DNA from: Kibdelosporangium aridum
Lineage (GTDB): Bacteria > Actinomycetota > Actinomycetes > Mycobacteriales > Pseudonocardiaceae
Reading direction: 5' to 3'
DNA length: 64,000 nt
Assembly (NCBI RefSeq): GCF_900176515.1
Contig: NZ_FWXV01000001.1
Coordinates: forward strand, 1,054,001 to 1,118,000
Position numbers and translations under genes: made by a program. Position 1 is the stretch's first letter, and every line of letters starts with the position of its first letter. Shown here in pieces: positions 4,345 through 14,704 of this stretch. Under the pieces are notes generated by a model, which did no database searches, was not told where the DNA came from, and worked only from the letters and a program-made list of their open reading frames with translations.

Positions 4345-5103
4345 GTGAGTATGCCGCTGTTCGCCTCGCCCGAGCAGTTGATGCGGGAGAAGTCCGAGAT
4401 CGCCCGTAAGGGCATCGCGCGGGGCCGCAGTGTCGTCGTGCTGAAGTACGCCGGTGGCGTGCTGTTCGTCGCGGAGATCCCGGCCAAGAGCACCCTGCGC
4501 AAGGTCTCTGAGCTCTACGACCGCATCGGGTTCGCCGCGGCCGGTCGCTACAGCGAGTTCGAAGGCCTGCGCCGCGGCGGCATCAGGCACGCCGAGCTGT
4601 GGGGCTTCGCGTACGACCGCCGGGACGTTTCGGCGCGCCAGCTCGCCAACGTCTACGCGCAGTCGCTCGGTGCGATCTTCACCGAGCAGCTCAAGCCGTA
4701 CGAGGTGGAGCTCTGCGTCGCCGAGGTCGGTGTCACGGCCGAGCAGGACCAGATGTTCCGGCTGACCTACGACGGCTCGATCGTCGACGAGTCGCGGTTC
4801 ATGGTGATGGGCGGCAACGTCGACCCGATCGTGACCGCGCTGAAGGACACCTACAGCGAGGGCATGGAGTTGCCCGCTGCCGTTGACGTCGCTGTCCGCG
4901 CGCTGAGCAAGTCGAGCAGCAACAGCAACAACGGCGGCGACGGCGGACTGCTCGCCTCGGAGAACCTCGAGGTGGCAGTGCTCGACCGGGCAAGGCCACG
5001 GCGTGCGTTCCGCCGGATCTCCGGCGAGGCGCTGACCGCGCTGCTGCCCACGAGCGAGCCGCCCAAGGCCGCCGAGGAAGAGCCGCCGGCCACCGACAAG
5101 TAG
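4345..5103 (+). CDS. prcA: 20S proteasome alpha subunit PrcA
   Basis: A 252-residue alpha-ring subunit that forms the gate of the 20S core and docks the activator. The N-terminus [23 protein letters not shown] matches the family gating segment. GTG 4345 is preferred to the ATG two codons later because CAGGAG (4331-4336) sits 8 bases before it. Alpha subunits lack the catalytic threonine, as here. A serine/asparagine/glycine-rich insert at about 190-205 and a proline/glutamate-rich C-terminal tail are lineage-variable. A terminator-like hairpin follows. Confidence 0.95.
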
Positions 5104-5121
5104 GACACCAGAGTCATACAT

Positions 5122-5158
5122 CCGGACCCGGGAGCCGACTCCGCGCTCTCGGGTCCGG
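5122..5158 (+). terminator. Hairpin terminator after prcA
   Basis: Arms 5122-5134 and 5146-5158 pair over 13 positions with one mismatch around an 11-base loop, followed by a short T-containing stretch. It separates prcA from the caspase-like/EccC gene, suggesting the two are not one transcript. Confidence 0.65.
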
Positions 5159-5183
5159 GCTTTGTCATGGGGAGGAAACCGGC

Positions 5184-8100
5184 GTGACAGGCCGCCGAAT
5201 CGCGCTGCTGGTCGCGACGACCGAGCACATCGATCCCAACTTGCGTGGCCACAGCGTGCCGCCGGGGGACGGCAGGCGTCTGCGGGAACTGCTGCTCGAC
5301 CCGGACGTGGGCGGGTACGACGAGGTGGTCCTGCTCGCGAACGAGTCCAAGTCCGGGATCGAACGCGAACTGGAGCGCCTGCTGCGGGATCGCGCGCCCG
5401 AGGACACGGTGTTGCTGCACCTGACCGGATGCGCGGTGTGGAACGCGTACGGCCAGTTGTTCTTCGCCACGGCGGGCACTGACGCGATGCAGCCGTGGTC
5501 GACGGCTCTGTCGGCCATGGTGCTGGGGTACATGCTCGCCGAGTGCCAGGCGAAGTCGAAGGTCGTCCTGCTGGACTGCGCCATAGGGGCGCAGCCGTTC
5601 CTGAACGACTACCTCGGCACGAGCGCGTTCTTGATCTCGGCGACGAACCGGCTCACCGCGACGGTCGTCCGCGCGCTGGACACCGGCGCGGCGGACAAGG
5701 ACGGCGACGGCCAGATCTCCGCTTCGGAGCTGCACGACTTCGTCACTGCCGAACTGCACGACGAGGGAACGCAGGGGTGCGCCAGCCAGGTCGAGCCGAA
5801 CATCGTGATCGCCAAGGCACGCACGCAGACCACCGAGCCCGCCGAGCCCGCCGCGCCGCCGCAGCCGGTCGAGCCCGGCGGCCAACCAGATCTGCTTGAC
5901 CTGCTGGGGATTTCGTCTCCGGTGACGTTCGACGTCCAGCACGCGTGGCGGCGGCGACCGGAGAACGAGCGGTACCGCGTGCCGATCGGTGTCGACGAGA
6001 GCGGCCAGCCGGTCGTGGTGGACATCAAGAACGCCGGGATGGACGGCATGGGCCCGCACGGCCTGTGCTTCGGCTCGCTTTTCGATTCCGGCACAACGGA
6101 TTTCGTCCGCACCTTCGTCCTTGGGCTCGCGGCGGCCCATTCGTCGCAGATCCTCAACTTCGTCATCGTGGACCTCGACAGCGGGGCCGCGTTCCAAGAG
6201 CTGGCCAACCTGCCGCATGTCTCGGCGCTGCTCACCGACCTCGGCGACAACCTGCTGCTGGTCGACCGGTTGATGGACGCGCTGGCCGGTGAGATGAACA
6301 GGCGCCAGGAACTGCTGCGTGCGTCCGGCAACTTCAAGAACTTCTGGGAGTACGAACAAGCCAGGGACAGCGGCGCCGACCTCGACCCGATGCCCGCACT
6401 GGTCATCGTCGTCAACGAGTTCGCGAGCCTGATGACCGCCAAACCTGCGCTGGAGCGGGTTTTCGTCGCGCTGGGCAGGCTGGGAAAGTCGCTGGGACTG
6501 CACATGCTGCTGGTGGCCAAAGCGATGGATCAGGGCAGTCTGCGGGCGCTCGACCCGTTCCTGTCGTACCGGATCGGGCTTCGGATGTCCTCGGCCGAGG
6601 AATCCCGTGTGGTGTTCGGCATTCCGGACGCCCACGAACTCCCGGCCGACGCTGGTGCCGCATACCTGAAGAAGGACGTCGGGACGTTGGTCCGGTTCAC
6701 CACGGCGACTGTCACCGGGAACGTGGACGATTCGCCGGACGCGTGGCCCAGGTTCGATCTCGTCGTGCACCGGATGCTCGGTCAAGGACCACCGGCTCAC
6801 GAGATCTGGCTGCCGCCGCTGGATGGGCCGTGTTCGCTGGACGTGCTGATGCCGCCGTTGCACGTGACAGATCGGGGTCTGTGCCCACAGAACACCCCGT
6901 GGCTCGGGCAGCTGCAGACGCCCGTCGGGGTTGTCGACAAGCCGTTCGAGCAGCGGCGTGACCTGCTGTGGGCGGATTTCTCCGGCGCTGCGGGGCATGG
7001 CGCGGTCGTCGGCGCCGCGGGATCGGGCAAGTCGATGCTCCTGCGCACGCTGCTGGTGTCGATGGCTTTGACCCAAACCCCGCTGGAGGCCCAGTTCCAC
7101 TGCCTCGATCTCGGTGGCGGGACGCTCGCTTCGGTGGCCGAGTTGCCGCATGTCGGTTCGGTCGCGTCGGCAGCCGACCGGGACTTGGTGCCACGGATCG
7201 TCACCGAACTCGCCTCGCTGGTCGCCGACCGGGAGCGGCGGTTCCGCGAGCAGGGCGTCGATTCGATGGCCGAATTCCGGGACCGCAAGCGGCAAGGGCG
7301 AATCACCGACGACCCGTTCGGTGACGTGTTCCTGGTCGTGGACGGCTGGCAGGTGTTCCGGCGGGAGTTCCCGGCACTGGAAGGCCCTGTCGTCAACCTT
7401 GTCGCACAAGGGTTGGCGTATGGCGTGCACGTGATCGTGTCCGCCGAGCGGTGGGCCGACATCCCGCCCGCGACAAAGGACCTGCTGGGCACGAGGTTCG
7501 AGCTGCGCGTCGACGACCCAGCTGAGTCCGAAGTGGACAACCGGATCGCGGTGAACGTTCCCATCGGGCGCCCCGGGTTCGGGCTGAGCCAGCAGAAGCT
7601 GCACTTCGTCGGCGGCCTGCCGCGGATCGACGGCTCGGCATCCGCCGACGACGTGGACGCCGGTGTCCAGGACGCACTCGGCAAAATCCGCCAGCACTGG
7701 CGCGGGCCGGTGCCGCCGTTGGCGCGCCCGGAGCCGTACACGGCCAAGAGCCGCACGATCCAGATCGGCGTGAACGACGGCCAAGCCCCTGTGTCCGTCG
7801 ACTTCGACGCCGAGCCCCACTTCCTGGTGTTCGGCGCGGGTGAGTCAGGCAAGACGAACGTGCTGCGCACCATCGTGCGCGGCATCATGCAGCAGTACAC
7901 GCCGGAAGACGCGGTGATCATGCTCGTCGATTACCGGCGCTCCATGCTCGGGTACATCGACACGCAGCACCTCCTGGCGTACGCCTTCTCGCCGTCCCAG
8001 CTCGCGGACATGGCAGCGGATGTCATCGCGTCGCTGCGTAAACGCCTGCCAGGCCCGGATGTCACACAAGAACAGGCGAAGGACCGGTCCTGGTGGAAGG

Positions 8101-8444
8101 GACCCGAGCTGTTCCTGATCGTGGACGACTACGAACTGCTGACAGCGCAGGAGAACAACCCGCTCGCACCGCTGCGGGAGTTCGTGCCCCTCGCCAAGGA
8201 CGTCGGGCTGCACGTCATCGTCGCGAGCCGTCCCATGGCCCCGGCGCGGGCGTCGTTCGATCCGGTCATCGGCATCCTCAAGGAGTTCGCCAGCCCGGGC
8301 GTCGTGCTCAGCGTGCCGGAGGACCAAGGCCCGCAGATGGGCAACTACCGCCCCACGCTCCTGCCACCCGGCCGCGGCACGATGATCACCCGAGGCGGAC
8401 AGCAGGGCCTCCAGCTGACGTGGACTCCGGACATTCAGCGGTAG
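5184..8444 (+). CDS. Fusion of a degenerate caspase-like domain with an EccC/FtsK-type triple ATPase
   Basis: A 1,086-residue soluble protein; GTG 5184 follows GGGGAGGAAA. Residues 1-210 resemble bacterial caspase-like (C14) domains: an opening ALLVATTEHID strand, TGCAVWNAYGQLFFAT where the family has SGHG...G.L..A, and VVLLDCAIG where it has a catalytic Cys before a small-residue turn. Both catalytic positions appear replaced (His by Cys83, Cys by Ala133). Residues 171-182 are a textbook EF-hand loop (DKDGDGQISASE). After a proline-rich linker, residues 245-1086 follow the three-ATPase layout of type VII secretion EccC. D1 is degenerate (GSLFDSGTT 297-305; VIVVN 407-411). D2 (GAAGSGKS 610-617; FLVVD) and D3 (GAGESGKT 884-891; FLIVDD) are intact. 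EccC's N-terminal membrane helices are missing and no other esx/ecc gene is nearby, so secretion is doubtful. Confidence 0.85.
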   Translation: MTGRRIALLVATTEHIDPNLRGHSVPPGDGRRLRELLLDPDVGGYDEVVLLANESKSGIERELERLLRDRAPEDTVLLHLTGCAVWNAYGQLFFATAGTDAMQPWSTALSAMVLGYMLAECQAKSKVVLLDCAIGAQPFLNDYLGTSAFLISATNRLTATVVRALDTGAADKDGDGQISASELHDFVTAELHDEGTQGCASQVEPNIVIAKARTQTTEPAEPAAPPQPVEPGGQPDLLDLLGISSPVTFDVQHAWRRRPENERYRVPIGVDESGQPVVVDIKNAGMDGMGPHGLCFGSLFDSGTTDFVRTFVLGLAAAHSSQILNFVIVDLDSGAAFQELANLPHVSALLTDLGDNLLLVDRLMDALAGEMNRRQELLRASGNFKNFWEYEQARDSGADLDPMPALVIVVNEFASLMTAKPALERVFVALGRLGKSLGLHMLLVAKAMDQGSLRALDPFLSYRIGLRMSSAEESRVVFGIPDAHELPADAGAAYLKKDVGTLVRFTTATVTGNVDDSPDAWPRFDLVVHRMLGQGPPAHEIWLPPLDGPCSLDVLMPPLHVTDRGLCPQNTPWLGQLQTPVGVVDKPFEQRRDLLWADFSGAAGHGAVVGAAGSGKSMLLRTLLVSMALTQTPLEAQFHCLDLGGGTLASVAELPHVGSVASAADRDLVPRIVTELASLVADRERRFREQGVDSMAEFRDRKRQGRITDDPFGDVFLVVDGWQVFRREFPALEGPVVNLVAQGLAYGVHVIVSAERWADIPPATKDLLGTRFELRVDDPAESEVDNRIAVNVPIGRPGFGLSQQKLHFVGGLPRIDGSASADDVDAGVQDALGKIRQHWRGPVPPLARPEPYTAKSRTIQIGVNDGQAPVSVDFDAEPHFLVFGAGESGKTNVLRTIVRGIMQQYTPEDAVIMLVDYRRSMLGYIDTQHLLAYAFSPSQLADMAADVIASLRKRLPGPDVTQEQAKDRSWWKGPELFLIVDDYELLTAQENNPLAPLREFVPLAKDVGLHVIVASRPMAPARASFDPVIGILKEFASPGVVLSVPEDQGPQMGNYRPTLLPPGRGTMITRGGQQGLQLTWTPDIQR

Positions 8445-8450
8445 ACGGAT

Positions 8451-9920
8451 TCAGCGGTAGACGGTGAGGGCGGCTGGCTGGGCGGTGAAGCGGAACCTGG
8501 TGCCCAGCGGGCCGACTTCGCCGTCCGTGGCGATCCTGATCGGCTTGCCGTACACCTTCACGTCCAGCTCGGACACTTCCAGATGCCGGTACGTCTTGCT
8601 GCGGTGCAAGGCGCCCAGCACAGCGCCGAACACGAACCGCAGCCGTGAGAACGGGACGTCGGCGCGGATGTAGCGGACGTCCATCAAGCCCGTGTCCAGC
8701 TCGAACCGGGTGGTCGGGGCGAAGCCCTTCGGCCGGTAGGACCCGTTGCCGACGAACACCATCCAGACCAGGTGCCGTTCGTTGTTGATGGTCAGGTGCA
8801 GCGGCGCCGACTTGGCCAGCACGCGGACCAGCGCGATCGCCCCGGCAGGCCACTTGCCCCAGCGGCGGGTGAGTTTTTCGCGCAGCCGCACCATGTCCGG
8901 GTAGCCACCGAGGCTCGCGGTGTTGAGGAACCAGCGCGGCGGGTGTTCGTCCACGTCGACGTGGCTCAGGTCGACGCGGGCACCGTTACCGATCGCCAGG
9001 GCGTCGGCCACGCTCTGGATGCCGTCGATCCCGACATCGCGGGCGAAATGGTTCAACGTTCCCGCTGGCACGAGCACCAGCGGCAAGTGGCGTTCGGCTG
9101 CGACCGCCGACACCGCGGCGACAGTGCCGTCGCCGCCCGCCACCCCCAGGGCCTTCGGCGGTACTTCGGCCTCGTCGATCGTCTTGTGCAGGTGCTCGAT
9201 CAAGCTGTCGCCCTCGGGGTAGACCACCGTCGCCTTCGGCCAGTACGACTGGATCTCCTCGGTCGGGTCGTTGCCGTCGATGCCCGAACCCGGGTTCACG
9301 AGTACGAGAACGCCCTCGCCGTTCTCGATCGCTGGTAACGCCGACTGCGGGTGCGCGCTCGCGGGCTCGTCCGCGCCGGGCGGCCACCAACGGCGGGTGG
9401 CCAGGCCCGCGGCGACGCCGATGGCAGCGCCCGCGGCCACGTCCGTCGGCCAGTGCACACCAGTGTGGACGCGCGAATATGCAACCGCTGCCGCCAACGG
9501 CAGCACCGCGGCGCCGAGCACCGGGCTCTCCATCGTCAACGCTGTCGTGAACGCCACCGCGGACGCTGAATGGCCCGACGGGAACGACGAGGACGTCGGC
9601 CGCTTGGTCAGCCGCCGGTATGTGGGCAACAACTCAGCGGCGGGTCTACGCCGCGGAAACAGTTGCTTGCCGATCAGGTTCGCGCTGAAGCTCGCGAAGC
9701 CGATCGCGACCACTCCCCGTAACGCCGCCCGGCGGGGCTTGCCTTTCCGCATGGCGAGAACACTCGCCACGCTGAACCACAACACGCCGTGGTTCGCCGA
9801 TTTGGTCAAACTCTTCAGCGCCCGGTCGACCCTTGTCTCCGGCAGCTCGGCACTGCGGCGGACAAGGGTTTTGTCCATCTGGCTGGCGTCGCGCAGCGAT
9901 CTTCGAACACGTCGGAACAC
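8451..9920 (-). CDS. PAP2 phosphatase-diacylglycerol kinase fusion protein
   Basis: A minus-strand protein of 489 residues from GTG 9920, chosen because TACCGT lies exactly seven bases upstream (leaderless pattern). ATG 9878 (475 aa) and GTG 10007 (518 aa) are alternatives. The N-terminal half is a membrane PAP2 phosphatase with all three signatures: KQLFPRRRP, SSFPSGHSAS and YSRVHTGVHWPTD. The C-terminal half is a DAGK-type lipid kinase domain with VLVNPGSG, AGGDGTVAA and PAGTLNHFARD. The pairing suggests turnover of phosphorylated lipids such as phosphatidic acid or polyprenyl phosphates at the membrane. It ends seven bases from the convergent EccC-like gene. Confidence 0.85.
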   Translation of the reverse strand: MFRRVRRSLRDASQMDKTLVRRSAELPETRVDRALKSLTKSANHGVLWFSVASVLAMRKGKPRRAALRGVVAIGFASFSANLIGKQLFPRRRPAAELLPTYRRLTKRPTSSSFPSGHSASAVAFTTALTMESPVLGAAVLPLAAAVAYSRVHTGVHWPTDVAAGAAIGVAAGLATRRWWPPGADEPASAHPQSALPAIENGEGVLVLVNPGSGIDGNDPTEEIQSYWPKATVVYPEGDSLIEHLHKTIDEAEVPPKALGVAGGDGTVAAVSAVAAERHLPLVLVPAGTLNHFARDVGIDGIQSVADALAIGNGARVDLSHVDVDEHPPRWFLNTASLGGYPDMVRLREKLTRRWGKWPAGAIALVRVLAKSAPLHLTINNERHLVWMVFVGNGSYRPKGFAPTTRFELDTGLMDVRYIRADVPFSRLRFVFGAVLGALHRSKTYRHLEVSELDVKVYGKPIRIATDGEVGPLGTRFRFTAQPAALTVYR

Positions 9921-9927
9921 ACTGTGA

Positions 9928-9933
9928 ACGGTA
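9928..9933 (-). promoter_or_regulatory. Leaderless -10 box of the PAP2-lipid kinase gene
   Basis: On the minus strand TACCGT is followed by seven bases and GTG 9920. It decides between the possible starts of this gene. Confidence 0.45.
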
Positions 9934-10029
9934 GCGACAGAGCCGATGCGGCGCCGATCGGATGTCTCATTTCGGGTAGTTGACCTATGTCGCCCCGAAC
10001 GGCGCACGGTAGTCAGCGCCGAGACCGCC

Positions 10030-10035
10030 TAGGCT
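10030..10035 (+). promoter_or_regulatory. Leaderless -10 box of pafA
   Basis: TAGGCT, six bases, then the pafA ATG at 10042. Hexamer and spacing are identical to dop. Confidence 0.6.
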
Positions 10036-10041
10036 AAAGGG

Positions 10042-11400
10042 ATGCAGCGGCGGATCTTCGGCATCGAAACCGAGTTCGGTGTGACCTGCACCTTTCACGG
10101 GCAGCGCAGGCTGAGCCCCGACGAGGTGGCCAGGTACCTGTTCCGGCGGGTCGTGTCATGGGGGCGTTCATCGAACGTCTTCCTGCGCAATGGCTCGCGC
10201 CTCTACCTGGACGTCGGGTCGCATCCGGAGTACGCCACGGCCGAGTGCGACGACCTGGTACAGCTGGTCACGCACGACAAGGCCGGTGAGCGGATCCTGG
10301 AGGATCTGCTCGTCGACGCCGAGCGTCGGCTGGCCGACGAAGGCATCGGCGGCGACATCTTCCTGTTCAAGAACAACACCGACTCGGCGGGCAACTCATA
10401 CGGCTGCCACGAGAACTACTGTGTCACGCGGGCCGGCGAGTTCTCGCGGATCGCTGACGTGCTGCTGCCGTTCCTGGTGACACGCCAGCTCATCTGCGGC
10501 GCGGGCAAGGTGCTGCAGACGCCTCGCGGAGCTGTCTATTGCCTGTCACAACGCGCCGAGCACATCTGGGAAGGCGTCTCCAGCGCCACCACCCGGTCCC
10601 GGCCGATCATCAACACCCGCGACGAGCCGCATGCGGACGCCGAGCGGTACCGCAGGCTGCACGTGATCGTCGGCGACTCGAACATGTCCGAGTCGACCAC
10701 CCTGCTCAAGGTCGGCAGTGCCAACCTGGTGCTCGAGATGATCGAGGAAGGCATCCAGTTCCGTGACTTCAGCCTGGACAACCCGATCCGCGCGATCCGC
10801 GAGATCAGCCACGACCTGACCGGAAGGCGCCTGGTCCGGCTGGCAGGCGGCCGCGAGGCGTCGGCGCTGGACATCCAGCGCGAGTACTACGCCAAGGCTG
10901 TGGAGCACGTCGAGCGCCGCGGGACCGGCGCCGTGGCACAGCGCGTTATCGAACTGTGGGGCCGCACCCTCGACGCGGTGGAGCAAGAGGACCTCAGCAA
11001 GATCGACCGCGAGATCGACTGGGCGATCAAGCACCGGCTGGTCGAGCGCTACCAGGCCAAGCACAACCTGGAACTCTCCAGCGCCCGCGTGGCCCAGCTG
11101 GACCTGGCGTACCACGACATCCGCCGCGGCAGGGGGATCTTCGACCTGCTGCAGCGCAAGGACCTGGTGGCCAGGGTGACCGACGACGGCGAGATCGAAG
11201 CAGCCAAGGACACCCCGCCGCAGACGACGCGGGCGAAGCTGCGCGGCGATTTCATCGCGGCGGCACAGGAAGCAGGCCGTGACTTCACAGTGGACTGGGT
11301 CCACCTGAAACTGAACGACCAGGCACAGCGCACAGTGCTGTGCAAGGACCCGTTCCGGGCAGTGGACGAAAGGGTCGAGAGGTTGATCGCCTCCCTGTGA
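10042..11400 (+). CDS. pafA: Pup-protein ligase PafA
   Basis: A 452-residue ATP-dependent ligase that joins the C-terminal glutamate of Pup to target lysines. It shares the fold and signatures of Dop in this window ([37 protein letters not shown]) but lacks the Dop loop: after [19 protein letters not shown] it runs directly into the core. The N-terminus [11 protein letters not shown] carries the active-site glutamates. It is transcribed in the same direction as dop-pup-prcBA but separated from them by the EccC-like gene and the minus-strand lipid kinase. Confidence 0.96.
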
Positions 11401-11404
11401 GGCC

Positions 11405-11548
11405 GTGTCCACCTTTCCAGCACAGCGTGTCGACCACTCCGGCACAGTGAAATCCCCGCCGAGCACCCCCGGCGGGGATTTCACTGTGCCGGAACGGAGA
11501 TTTCGGGGTGCCGGAAAGTGCATTTCAGGGTGCCGCAAAGGTGGACAC
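11405..11548 (+). repeat. Nested palindromic element with three 22-base-period repeats
   Basis: The outer arms GTGTCCACCTTT (11405-11416) and AAAGGTGGACAC (11537-11548) are exact reverse complements. Inside, a perfect 24-base inverted repeat (11438-11461 with 11470-11493) surrounds an 8-base loop. The right half contains three 17-base units of form ATTTCNNNGTGCCGGAA at 11478, 11500 and 11522, i.e. a 22-base period. It sits 5 bases after pafA and could terminate it, but it is much larger than an ordinary terminator and looks like a repeat element. Confidence 0.75.
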
Positions 11549-11659
11549 GAAGGTGCACGGCGGGCCGCCGCAAATAAGCTTGTCGGCGGGCAGGGCCGTA
11601 GGTCCTGCCTGCGGTTTTGGTCCTGCTTTGCGGCGCAGAGGCTCCACACCAAATCGCGC

Positions 11660-11733
11660 CGCCCCAGCCATCTCACCCGAGGGCTAAGAATTCAACCGCC
11701 CCAGCCACCTCACCCAAGAGCCAAGAATTCAAG
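11660..11733 (+). repeat. 37-base direct repeat, two copies
   Basis: Two adjacent 37-base units (11660-11696 and 11697-11733) start with CGCCCCAGCCA and end with AAGAATTCAA plus one base; they differ at only a few positions. The surrounding 11401-12118 stretch has no convincing gene apart from a weak minus-strand ORF and the palindromic element. Confidence 0.7.
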
Positions 11734-11768
11734 CGGAACCCCCGGCCACTCACAAAGGCGACAGGGCA

Positions 11769-11975
11769 TCAGCGGCCCGGTGCCGCATAGTGGGCGCGCT
11801 GCCGTCTTCCACTTGGCCTTCGAGGGCCACTTGGCACGTAGTGGGATCTGATGACCACGCAGGTCGAGGCCACCGCCTGGACATGATCGACCTCGACTTC
11901 GGGATAGGTCCGGGCGTTGCGCCGGGCGGCGAGGAACGCGACAAGGCCGAGCACGAGCACGAGACAGATCCACAC
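11769..11975 (-). CDS. Possible small membrane protein, perhaps frameshifted
   Basis: A 68-codon minus-strand ORF from GTG 11975 begins with a clear single membrane helix (MWICLVLVLGLVAFLAARR). Codon choice is typical for the genome for about the first 45 codons, then deteriorates. The neighbouring frame, from about 11840 down to 11750, has good codons again (QVALEGQVEDGSAPTMRHR). Either the gene carries a frameshift or it is a chance ORF. No family recognised. Confidence 0.3.
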   Translation of the reverse strand: MWICLVLVLGLVAFLAARRNARTYPEVEVDHVQAVASTCVVIRSHYVPSGPRRPSGRRQRAHYAAPGR

Positions 11976-12105
11976 GCGCAGTAGCCTGGATCACTGCGGC
12001 TCGTTTCGCGCTGGATGCCACCCGAACGTGTCACGAGTCCGCGCCGACGGTCCGTTCGTACGGTCTCGTTGGCGCGTTGGGTGTCAGGCGCTCTTCGGGT
12101 GGCGT

Positions 12106-12111
12106 TAAGGT
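12106..12111 (+). promoter_or_regulatory. Leaderless -10 box of pafB
   Basis: TAAGGT, seven bases, then GTG 12119. This favours GTG 12119 over the in-frame upstream ATG at 12077. Confidence 0.5.
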
Positions 12112-12118
12112 CGTCTCC

Positions 12119-13093
12119 GTGTCCATCGCCCGTGCGGAACGCCTGGTGAACCTGGTGCTCTGCTTGTTGTCCACCCGGCAGTTCCTGTCCGCTGACCGGA
12201 TTCGCGCGATCGTGCCCGGATACGCCGACGCGCCGAACACCGAGGCCTTCTCCCGCATGTTCGAGCGGGACAAGACCGAGCTGCGGGAACTGGGGATCCC
12301 GCTGGAGACCGGGCGCAACACCGGGTTCGACGGCTTCGACTCCGTCGACGGCTACCGCATCGCACGCCGGGACTACGAACTCGGCGACATCGATCTCGAG
12401 CCGGACGAGGCGGCGGCGGTCGCGCTCGCGTCGCGCCTGTGGGACTCGCCGGAGCTCACCGGGGCCGCGCACGGCGCGATCATCAAACTCCGGGCCGCCG
12501 GTGTCGACGTCGACCAGTCGTCGCCCGCGATCGTCGAGCCGAAGGTGCGCACGGCCGAGCCGGCGTTCAGCCCGTTGCTCGCCGCGGTCCAGGAAGGCAA
12601 AGCCGTCACGTTCTCCTACCGTCGCCCGAGCCCGGCGGAGCTGAAGATGCGGACCATCGAGCCGTGGGGTGTGGTCTCCTGGCGTGGCCGTTGGTACGTC
12701 GTGGGCCACGACCGCGACCGCGACGCACCTCGCTGCTTCCGGCTGTCGCGCATCGTCGGTGACGTCAAACTCGTCGGTGAAGCCGGTGCCGTGCAACGCC
12801 CCGACAACATCAACTTGCTGGATTTCGTTGCCACCACCGGAAACGAACCGTCCAGTACATCGACGGCCAAGGTGTGGGTCGCGCGAGGCAAGGCCGCCGG
12901 TGTCCGGCGGCGTGCCAAAGTCCTTGGCAGCCGCGAGATCGGCGGTGTCAACGGCGACGAGGTCGAGCTGGAGCTGCGGTTCCCGGAGTCTGCCGCTTCG
13001 TGGCTGGCCGGGTTCGGCCCCGATGTCCTTGTCCTCGAACCGGAAGTGCTCCGCAAATCGGTGTACGAGCGGCTGCTGGAGGCGGCGAAATGA
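12119..13093 (+). CDS. pafB: WYL-domain DNA-damage regulator PafB
   Basis: A 324-residue regulator from GTG 12119. Residues 1-75 form an N-terminal helix-turn-helix (SIARAERLVNLVLCLLSTRQFLSADRI...). The middle carries a WYL-type ligand-sensing domain (YRRPSPAELKMRTIEPWGV...WYVVGHDRDRDAPRCFRLSRI), followed by the WCX C-terminal extension. In mycobacteria PafB and PafC together activate promoters of the RecA-independent DNA-damage response. pafC overlaps it by four bases (ATGA), so translation should be coupled. Confidence 0.93.
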   Translation: MSIARAERLVNLVLCLLSTRQFLSADRIRAIVPGYADAPNTEAFSRMFERDKTELRELGIPLETGRNTGFDGFDSVDGYRIARRDYELGDIDLEPDEAAAVALASRLWDSPELTGAAHGAIIKLRAAGVDVDQSSPAIVEPKVRTAEPAFSPLLAAVQEGKAVTFSYRRPSPAELKMRTIEPWGVVSWRGRWYVVGHDRDRDAPRCFRLSRIVGDVKLVGEAGAVQRPDNINLLDFVATTGNEPSSTSTAKVWVARGKAAGVRRRAKVLGSREIGGVNGDEVELELRFPESAASWLAGFGPDVLVLEPEVLRKSVYERLLEAAK

Positions 13094-14052
13094 GCGACCG
13101 GCTGCCCAGGCTGCTCGCCCTGGTGCCGTACCTGCTGGCCAGGCCGGGCATCAAGGTCGTGGACGCGGCCGCGGACTTCGGCGTGACCGAGAAGCAGCTG
13201 CGCAAGGACCTCGAGCTGCTGTGGATGTGCGGGCTGCCCGGTTACGGACCGGGCGACCTGATCGACCTGTCCTTCGAAGGCGACACGATCACGGTCGCGT
13301 TCGACGCGGGCATGAGCCGCCCGTTGCGGCTGACCGGTGCCGAGGCGACGGCGTTGCTGGTGGCGCTCAGGGCGCTGGGGGAGACCCCGGGAGTCGTGGA
13401 CGGTGAGGCCGTCCGGCGCGCGGTCGCGAAGATCGAAGCGGCCGCCGGCCTTGCCCAGCCCGCCGGTGTGGTGGTCGGTCTCGGTGTGCGGGAAGGCGAG
13501 GACACCGCGGAAGTCCGGCGAATCGTCCAGACAGCGCTGACCGCGCAGAAAGCCCTGCGGATCACGTACTACACCGCCTCCAAGGACGAGATCACCGAGC
13601 GGACAGTCGACCCGATGCGGCTGCTGATCGTCGAAGGCCGCTCGTACCTCGAAGCCTGGTGCCGTCGCGCCGACGCGGTGCGCCTGTTCCGGCTCGACCG
13701 CATCGACGAGGTCACCCAGCTCGCTGAGCCTGCTTCCCCGCCGCCGTACGCCGAACCGACGGACGTCTCAAGTGGCCTGTTCACGCCACAACCCGATCAG
13801 CTGGTCGCCACCCTGGTGCTGGAGCCGGACACCCGCTGGATCTCCGAGTACTACCCGGTGGAAAGCGTGGAAGAGCTGGAAGGCGGCCGGGTCCGGGTGC
13901 GTATGCGGTACTCGGATCGTGCCTGGATGGTGCGGCTCCTGCTGGGCCAGGGCGGCGAGGTGCACGTCGAATCGCCGCCCGATCTCGCCGACCAACTGCG
14001 GACACGTGCCCGTCAGGCACTTGAACTAGCCAGCAACCTGGCGTCAACCTGA
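13090..14052 (+). CDS. pafC: WYL-domain DNA-damage regulator PafC
   Basis: A 320-residue partner of PafB, starting at the ATG that overlaps the pafB stop. The N-terminal winged helix runs over about 1-75 (LPRLLALVPYLLARPGIKVVDAAADFGVTEKQLRKDLELLWMCGLPGY). The WYL region includes ITYYTASKDEITERTVDP, RSYLEAWCRRADAVRLFRLDRI and a WCX tail. A longer reading frame extends upstream inside pafB, but the ATGA junction is the natural start. PafC lies in the same operon as PafB and presumably acts as a heterodimer with it. Confidence 0.93.
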   Translation: MSDRLPRLLALVPYLLARPGIKVVDAAADFGVTEKQLRKDLELLWMCGLPGYGPGDLIDLSFEGDTITVAFDAGMSRPLRLTGAEATALLVALRALGETPGVVDGEAVRRAVAKIEAAAGLAQPAGVVVGLGVREGEDTAEVRRIVQTALTAQKALRITYYTASKDEITERTVDPMRLLIVEGRSYLEAWCRRADAVRLFRLDRIDEVTQLAEPASPPPYAEPTDVSSGLFTPQPDQLVATLVLEPDTRWISEYYPVESVEELEGGRVRVRMRYSDRAWMVRLLLGQGGEVHVESPPDLADQLRTRARQALELASNLAST

Positions 14053-14058
14053 GACCGA

Positions 14059-14064
14059 TACGCT
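14059..14064 (+). promoter_or_regulatory. Leaderless -10 box of the small membrane gene at 14072
   Basis: TACGCT, seven bases, then GTG 14072, fitting the leaderless pattern. Confidence 0.45.
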
Positions 14065-14071
14065 TCCGCTC

Positions 14072-14299
14072 GTGCAATACATACCGGCCGTAGTGCTTGG
14101 GGCCGTCGGCCTGGTTGTTCTGGTCTTGGTGCTGCTGAGCCTCGCCAAGGCCGCACGCAGGTTCGCTGTGACGCGTGGTCACGTGAACGCCGAAGTGGGC
14201 GCCCGGATGGGCATGCTCAAAGCCCGGAGGGCCGCATTGCGTATCGCTGTCCGTGACCGTTTCCGGCGCACGGAGATCGATAAGTCCACGCAAGCGTGA
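14072..14299 (+). CDS. Small single-helix membrane protein between pafC and tatA
   Basis: A 75-residue protein with one N-terminal membrane helix (residues about 4-25, IPAVVLGAVGLVVLVLVLLSL) followed by a basic, helical cytoplasmic tail rich in arginine. GTG 14072 fits a leaderless start. Its position between pafBC and tatAC suggests a conserved member of the neighbourhood. No function is assigned. Confidence 0.7.
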   Translation: MQYIPAVVLGAVGLVVLVLVLLSLAKAARRFAVTRGHVNAEVGARMGMLKARRAALRIAVRDRFRRTEIDKSTQA

Positions 14300-14347
14300 T
14301 GACAGGTAACATGCAACTGAGTTGGGCGACGCGTCAGGAGGAGTCCC

Positions 14348-14704
14348 GTGGGTAACCTCGGACCTACCGAGTTGATCATCATCGCGGTGGTGATCATCCT
14401 GCTCTTCGGAGCCAAGAAGATGCCGGACATGGCCCGGTCGCTGGGCCGTTCGATGCGCATCATCAAGGCCGAGACCAAGGGCATGAAGCAGGACGACCAG
14501 GACGCCGCGCAGGCGACCACCGCCACTGCGACCACCCCGGCACCCGCCGCACCGGCGCAGCTGCCGGAGGCCAAGCCCGCAGCGCCGGCCGCTCCGGCCG
14601 CGGCGCAGCCGGACGTCGAGAAGATGCAGAAGCAGATCGACGACCTGCAGGCCAAGCTGAACAACAACCAGGCCGCTCCCACCCAGGCACCCAAGAACGC
14701 CTGA
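14348..14704 (+). CDS. tatA: Twin-arginine translocase subunit TatA
   Basis: A 118-residue pore-forming component of the Tat pathway, which exports folded proteins. It has a short N-terminal membrane helix (LIIIAVVIILLFGAKKMP), the conserved FG hinge, an amphipathic helix (DMARSLGRSMRIIKAE) and a long alanine/proline-rich tail of about 70 residues. GTG 14348 follows AGGAGG. tatC follows after 24 bases. Confidence 0.95.
   Translation: MGNLGPTELIIIAVVIILLFGAKKMPDMARSLGRSMRIIKAETKGMKQDDQDAAQATTATATTPAPAAPAQLPEAKPAAPAAPAAAQPDVEKMQKQIDDLQAKLNNNQAAPTQAPKNA

Follow-up and report, generated by a model that had tools for sequence, protein, structure and literature searches.

Kaur et al. (2020, PMC7159879) described, as their System 4, the system closest to the gene considered here. 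As the available part of that paper presents it, it consists of EACC1, a one-helix membrane protein, and a caspase protein with a variable C-terminal effector; in the authors' proposal EACC1 is a membrane sensor that switches on the caspase, which frees the effector by autoproteolysis. Our subject is a caspase-EccC fusion gene in a 64,000-nt stretch of Kibdelosporangium aridum (GCF_900176515.1, NZ_FWXV01000001.1), the whole of which we call the window and to which the feature coordinates below refer. An upstream EACC1 gene together with a caspase that carries a C-terminal effector makes an armed pair of the System 4 type; the window gene has lost the EACC1 partner, the catalytic dyad of the caspase, one whole ATPase domain and the nucleotide site of D1, the first of the three ATPase domains that remain. 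The reading that we put forward, tentatively and as something short of probable, is that this disarmed descendant of an EACC1-caspase-EccC system appears to be under purifying selection and may now serve as a soluble look-alike of EccC, a decoy or regulator whose D2 and D3 would capture Esx-type cargo or EccC itself.

The initial annotation, made from the letters of the window, had described a caspase-like domain with both catalytic positions changed, joined to a three-ATPase EccC body without a membrane part and with a ruined D1 site, and these points hold. Structure prediction gives a caspase/paracaspase fold (clan CD) at the N-terminus, followed by a C-terminal effector region as EACC1-caspase systems have; Cys83 and Ala133 stand at the dyad positions, which in armed relatives of other genera lie in GHG and DCC[YF]SG. 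The effector region comprises three FtsK-type ATPase domains of EccC type. The membrane part is absent, the best stretch of TIGR03924 being positions 371-672 of 673 only, with the caspase at the N-terminus. The D1 nucleotide site is not intact (GSLFDSGTTD and Asn411), whereas D2 and D3 keep their motifs (GAAGSGKS and GAGESGKT). The features are as follows.

5184..8444, + strand: caspase-EccC fusion gene, disarmed, 1086 aa
5184..5783, + strand: predicted caspase-fold domain, aa 1-200; active-site loops shorter than in K. banguiense
5430..5432, + strand: catalytic His position, here Cys83
5580..5582, + strand: catalytic Cys position, here Ala133
5784..5888, + strand: linker, partly of low confidence; armed relatives have an extra FtsK-type domain, D0 (~300 aa), here
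5889..6728, + strand: EccC D1-like domain with degraded nucleotide site
6072..6101, + strand: D1 Walker A, degraded, GSLFDSGTTD, aa 297-306
6402..6422, + strand: D1 Walker B, changed, VIVVNEF, aa 407-413, Asp to Asn411
6816..7673, + strand: EccC D2-like domain; Walker A GAAGSGKS at 7011-7034
7731..8441, + strand: EccC D3-like domain; Walker A GAGESGKT at 7833-7856, Walker B VDD
5169..5177, + strand: ribosome-binding site GGGGAGGAA
5121..5159, + strand: strong hairpin (z -4.75) downstream of prcA and ahead of the fusion gene
4345..5103, + strand: prcA, upstream flank of the insertion
8451..10007, - strand: PAP2-diacylglycerol kinase (PAP2-DAGK) fusion, downstream flank
10042..11400, + strand: pafA

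What the window gene has lost is seen from its relatives. A family-wide search covered 390 genomes, 185 of them with a caspase-domain match of any kind, and from these 185 we took the neighbourhoods of 20 and gene stretches of 5; a protein search contributed 120 listed proteins of the 257 found. Together they show longer fusions, of ~1400 aa, in other Pseudonocardiaceae, Streptomyces, Micromonospora and others, with Glycomyces as a further addition. Where full length, those of other genera consist of the caspase, D0, D1, D2 and D3 (the fusion at locus L049 is cut by a contig end); the caspase retains GHG and DCC[YF]SG in 14 other-genus neighbourhoods (L046-L059), and D0 has a Walker A motif in 14/14 sequences examined (L045-L048, L050-L059). 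A dyad scan of 123 retrieved proteins classed 87, the window protein included, as EccC-type by a motif rule, and both dyad residues are present in 82; the other five are the window protein and four that carry the name Kibdelosporangium or Actinosynnema sp. ALI-1.44. The same rule left out P0008 (K. philippinense, 716 aa), which is the sixth protein without the dyad, and P0086, a fusion of another kind that is poorly aligned.

The armed fusions are immediately preceded by a gene of ~120 residues. Three such genes that were tested are Pfam EACC1 (PF19953), one scoring above and two below the cut-off, and the copy of K. banguiense (genome G213) passes. A profile built from 11 upstream genes, which match it by construction, finds EACC1 directly upstream in 15/15 dyad-intact neighbourhoods (L045-L059) and in none of the six disarmed loci (the window and L040-L044). 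It also matches in L137 (same genome as L048), L138, L151, L196 and L198; the matches independent of training are L045, L054, L055, L058, L138, L151, L196 and L198. The initial annotation's view of the EccC scaffold as reused in a soluble protein is supported. Relatives of this genome's eccB, eccD and WXG100 genes turned up in none of 25 neighbourhoods, the window among them, in a comparison that may pass over distant forms, and the window, with no eccB, eccD or WXG100 match, is outside any ESX locus, the genome's above-cut-off eccB/eccD matches being on contigs C21 and C26. PADLOC returned only FtsK/HerA- or ATPase-type matches, the best being mad8 and SspH. The EACC1 partner, the ancestral fourth ATPase domain and the tracking of the cell's own EccC by many armed bodies, described below, had no place in the initial annotation.

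The caspase part of the window protein also contains an EF-hand-like calcium loop (DKDGDGQIS...E; window 5688-5744, aa 169-187), which the dead copies retain, apart from an altered version in L044; the Pfam EF-hand_5 match (E 0.00038) is below the cut-off. The loop may point to regulation of the armed caspases by calcium. The armed loci L046, L047, L050 and L056, from two genera, lie near a mur/mraY/ftsW cell-wall cluster (Pfam-checked in L046, and by shared gene clusters in the other three), a second housekeeping site for such inserts. At L053 the armed fusion is adjoined by a small FtsK-type frame (4700-5431, - strand) and a Lon protease gene (10572-12971, + strand), whose cluster is common to three armed loci (L051, L053 and L059).

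The disarmed form occupies one site in one genus group of eight genomes. Among the seven congeners of the window genome that were fetched, six have a fusion gene adjoining prcA (L040-L045), and the seventh, Actinocrispum (G219), has an empty site, with prcA followed by the PAP2-DAGK gene and pafA. K. banguiense (L045) carries EACC1 and an armed 1472-aa fusion, with intact dyad and D0, in the same prcA-pafA interval; the window and L040-L044 have a disarmed fusion there and no EACC1 (the L041 contig ends before pafA, and only the prcA side is seen there). The connection to a conflict system that the initial annotation had considered is borne out, as descent, by this intact pair. The six disarmed copies group together (99) with L045 adjacent (80) in a protein tree with midpoint root; several long branches of the D1-D3 protein tree are flagged, that of L044 being the longest. 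A single insertion in this genus, followed by disarmament, would be the simplest history.

The same site invites an explanation in terms of the proteasome, with the protein acting as an adaptor or unfoldase together with Pup and PrcBA. The fusion gene lies 80 bp behind prcA and has been kept there in 6/6 disarmed copies, and the initial annotation had proposed a Pup-proteasome link; we consider it very improbable. The site is an insertion inside one genus. A prcA search gave 48 matches, 46 of them in other genera; loci were obtained for 30, and none of the 28 other-genus loci examined among them has a fusion within 1.5 kb of prcA. Conversely, dop, prcB, prcA and pafA are absent from all 14 other-genus neighbourhoods of armed caspase-EccC fusions, so that no association with proteasome genes is conserved beyond the one genus. 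A hairpin separates prcA from the fusion gene at 7/7 loci with the insert (the window and L040-L045), and the D1 motor site is degraded. A proteasome link is not supported by these data; one may have been acquired later. The hairpin may act as a terminator; a consensus scan between prcA and the fusion gene found no promoter or U-tract terminator, the U run of the hairpin being weak. With the hairpin in this position, the fusion gene may be transcribed by read-through from prcBA or from a start of its own. As to the flanking genes, the PAP2 phosphatase-diacylglycerol kinase gene (8451-10007) has counterparts within 1.5 kb of prcA in 14/28 other-genus loci, a recurring link of a lipid enzyme to the proteasome locus, and L040, the closest relative, has an extra gene (13296-14492, - strand) between the fusion gene and the PAP2-DAGK gene, with a weak, below-cut-off match to NB-ARC.

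EACC1, the dyad, the active-site loops and D0 are missing from all six disarmed copies, and the D1 Walker A motif is broken in the window, L040, L041 and L044 and intact in L042 and L043. Because the dyad is lost in all six and the D1 motif kept in two, silencing of the caspase came before the decay of D1. Five of the six copies are full length, and all five retain the Walker lysines of D2 and D3. Between the window gene and its L040 counterpart, both fully disarmed, we counted 153 silent and 82 replacement differences, a ratio of replacement to silent rates (omega) of 0.168 (bootstrap 0.127-0.219), with 0.125 for the caspase, the lowest of the four domains, 0.199 for D1, 0.155 for D2 and 0.138 for D3. 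A one-ratio codon model (GY) over five disarmed copies gives 0.169; this model averages over lineages, and the counted values are by NG86, which ignores base composition. In neutral simulations the reading frame stayed open in 6/2000 runs at 0.1 substitutions per site and in 0/2000 at both 0.2 and 0.3. The dead form thus appears, to judge from these substitution patterns, to be under purifying selection of moderate strength. Counted omegas of the neighbouring genes for the same pair are 0.046 for dop, 0.051 for prcA, 0.024 for pafA, 0.144 for PAP2-DAGK and 0.346 for prcB; being mostly lower, they mark the fusion gene as looser than most of its neighbours.

Several of these data weigh against selection for a binding function and favour a dying relic, a gene that decays without function after the loss of the armed system. 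The L044 copy is frameshifted, so the gene can be lost, and the broken letters of the D1 Walker A motif differ among L041, L044 and the window/L040 pair. Counted omegas are higher between more distant copies (0.40 for window-L041, 0.46 for L042-L043 and 0.52 for window-L042, with 0.47 for the window and the armed L045), the caspase part is the highest of the four domains in window-L041 (0.59), and D3 in L042-L043 is nearly free (0.81, 0.56-1.17), a poor fit to a conserved cargo site. Yet the window-L040 omega, from two copies that were already dead and with its minimum in the caspase, seems to disfavour decay, as do the closing of every simulated neutral frame at a divergence of 0.2 and the full length of five of the six copies; we regard the relic as unlikely. 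The L044 copy (G215, 8193-11236) is split into frames of 716 and 309 residues, and the 716-residue protein of similar kind from K. philippinense (P0008) is recorded from three contigs.

The constraint on the dead caspase could also have another cause. The window protein may be a dominant-negative regulator of the cell's other caspase conflict systems, its dead caspase binding their peptides or partners: ~70% of the effector-position caspases of another system are inactive, and dominant-negative or peptide-binding roles have been suggested for them, as the available part of Kaur et al. (2020, PMC7159879) states. The low caspase omega of the window-L040 pair agrees with such a role, and the genome has another caspase-domain gene (636-aa frame, G000:C32:346699-347097) and, on a different contig, one EACC1 gene (G000:C26:753497-753700). 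The window-L041 comparison, with the caspase the fastest domain, points the other way; the active-site loops of the window caspase are deleted, and the analysis turned up no partner. We judge this alternative distinctly unlikely.

The proposal of a soluble EccC look-alike draws on the EccC-like bodies of the armed relatives. In the D1-D3 tree armed bodies and canonical EccC proteins interleave: the body and the EccC of the same genome are sisters in G202, G220, G342 and G103 (starred support) and in G248 (81), and the EccC of G060 is adjacent to the bodies of G060 and G075 (92); in G009 and G021 the two are not paired. Each genome was represented by one canonical eccC, chosen as the one closest to the window protein, and a better match within the genome may thereby have been missed in G344 and G369, whose chosen EccC belongs to another ESX type. 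The D0 domains form one clade against D2 (support 100; the D0 of L055 is flagged as a long branch near the D2 group), which means that the caspase-EccC fusion arose once, and the pairing of bodies with their own EccC then needs replacement of D1-D3 and not new fusions. Independent fusions in each lineage are ruled out by this combination of a single D0 clade with interleaved D1-D3 domains.

At the DNA level, we compared 21 armed genes, all with the dyad (13 + 8; G389, G390, G391 and G392 are late additions), and the 6 disarmed genes with the eccC loci of 98 records by the longest exact run. The own eccC ranks first of 98 in 10/21 armed genes, where the chance of a first place is 1 in 98 each if all records are equally close; in G072 the own eccC is level with L186, a duplicate record of that genome, and counting it gives 11/21. 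Runs of at least 100 bp with the own eccC occur in 7/21 (G389 701 bp, G342 549, G343 388, G060 364, G202 191, G075 132 and G072 121), and the longest printed run with another genome, the L186 duplicate aside, is 86 bp (G342 body and G343 eccC). The contigs of G389 and G072 end inside the fusion gene and their long runs may reflect assembly breaks at repeats, so we give both less weight; in G342, and likewise in G343, body and eccC are on one contig. The armed K. banguiense gene has its own eccC at rank 2, behind a congener.

The share of identical codons at conserved residues, scored for 21 pairs and the window, shows how far the likeness extends. The rise is confined to D2-D3 only in G342 (58, 86 and 93% in D1, D2 and D3; other-genome maxima 67, 79 and 82), G343 (58, 85 and 89%; maxima 68, 76 and 83) and G075 (68, 91 and 95%; maxima 65, 79 and 86). 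D1 is high as well in G060 (82, 93, 92), G202 (87, 91, 83), G391 (82, 86, 84) and G389 (D1 93, D2 100, D3 not seen), and in G390 it is the highest domain. These patterns suggest that whole bodies can be homogenised with the own eccC, with D2-D3 favoured in some.

According to the part of PMC6954902 available to us, D3 of EccC binds the C-terminal signal of Esx cargo, and its pocket is hypervariable across EccC proteins; the ten pocket residues given there were mapped by alignment. Armed body and own EccC agree at 10/10 of them in G060, G342 and G213, at 9/10 in G103, at 6 to 8 in G202, G220, G248, G009 and G021, and at 4/10 in G344 and G369, with their chosen EccC of another type; the disarmed copies agree at 7 to 8 of 10, the window at 8/10. 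We infer that in the armed fusions the EccC-like body is bait and that the caspase fires when the body is engaged: a copy of the own EccC would attract cargo, protomers or an attacker, and the caspase would be the output. In the window form, output and trigger are gone and the copy no longer tracks the own EccC; what remains is a D2-D3 unit whose ATP-site motifs are intact, joined to a degraded D1 and a dead caspase, and this would be the binding half of the armed form.

The comparison with EccC has its own counterweights. In 10/21 armed loci the own eccC is neither first nor second by a duplicate (ranks 2 to 57). The window body ranks its own eccC 27 of 98 (all six disarmed copies: 27, 42, 3, 32, 23 and 59) and is 62% identical to its own EccC and 64% to that of a congener, and its 8/10 pocket does not clearly exceed the 61% identity found over D3 as a whole. 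The homogenisation could, moreover, be passive recombination between similar genes.

A wider reading is that actinobacteria link their type VII secretion to a death switch of the integrated-decoy kind, made of a caspase and a soluble EccC copy kept matched by gene conversion, which in this lineage moved to the proteasome locus, was disarmed stepwise and is now a soluble decoy. The matched copy would be engaged by whatever attacks or hijacks the real EccC motor. We consider this version somewhat unlikely as a whole. The matching of many armed bodies to their own EccC does turn it into a concrete claim open to test, with these caspases as guards or mimics of type VII secretion, a question on which we found nothing in the open-licence literature. 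The locus itself offers a disarmament series at one site, with an empty site, an armed copy, dead copies that still look selected and a broken copy.

As for precedent, EccC has 0 occurrences in the main text of Kaur et al. (2020, PMC7159879), and the open-licence literature, with few subscription papers covered, yielded no paper on a caspase-EccC fusion or its conversion with eccC. Such fusions exist in public records, often named 'type VII secretion protein EccCb', a name not to be taken at face value. Integrated decoys of immune receptors are copies of a component of the cell that serve as bait and are joined to a signalling or death domain. The armed fusions resemble them by analogy only, and a search of open-licence papers found no bacterial EccC decoy. 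Cyanobacterial pseudo-orthocaspases, in which Tyr and Ser replace the dyad (in the part of PMC6426788 available), are likewise caspase homologues with a replaced dyad, whereas the window protein has Cys and Ala and is fused to EccC. In firmicutes, recombination joins paralogues of type VII secretion immunity genes (as the accessible part of PMC9484751 describes); recombination between paralogues tied to type VII secretion is shared, but there the genes are tandem immunity genes and here a caspase fusion and a distant secretion-motor gene. From EccC of type VII secretion (T. curvata 4nh0; M. tuberculosis EccCb1) the window protein differs in having no membrane part, a lost D1 site and a caspase in front, and in lying outside an ESX locus. 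With the EACC1-caspase systems it shares an N-terminal caspase of their type and a C-terminal effector, and the full pair occurs at this site in a congener, but the window protein lacks EACC1 and the dyad that the proposed autoproteolysis needs. We class the window gene as a disarmed derivative of the EACC1-caspase systems and not as a working example of them; nor does it belong to EccC.

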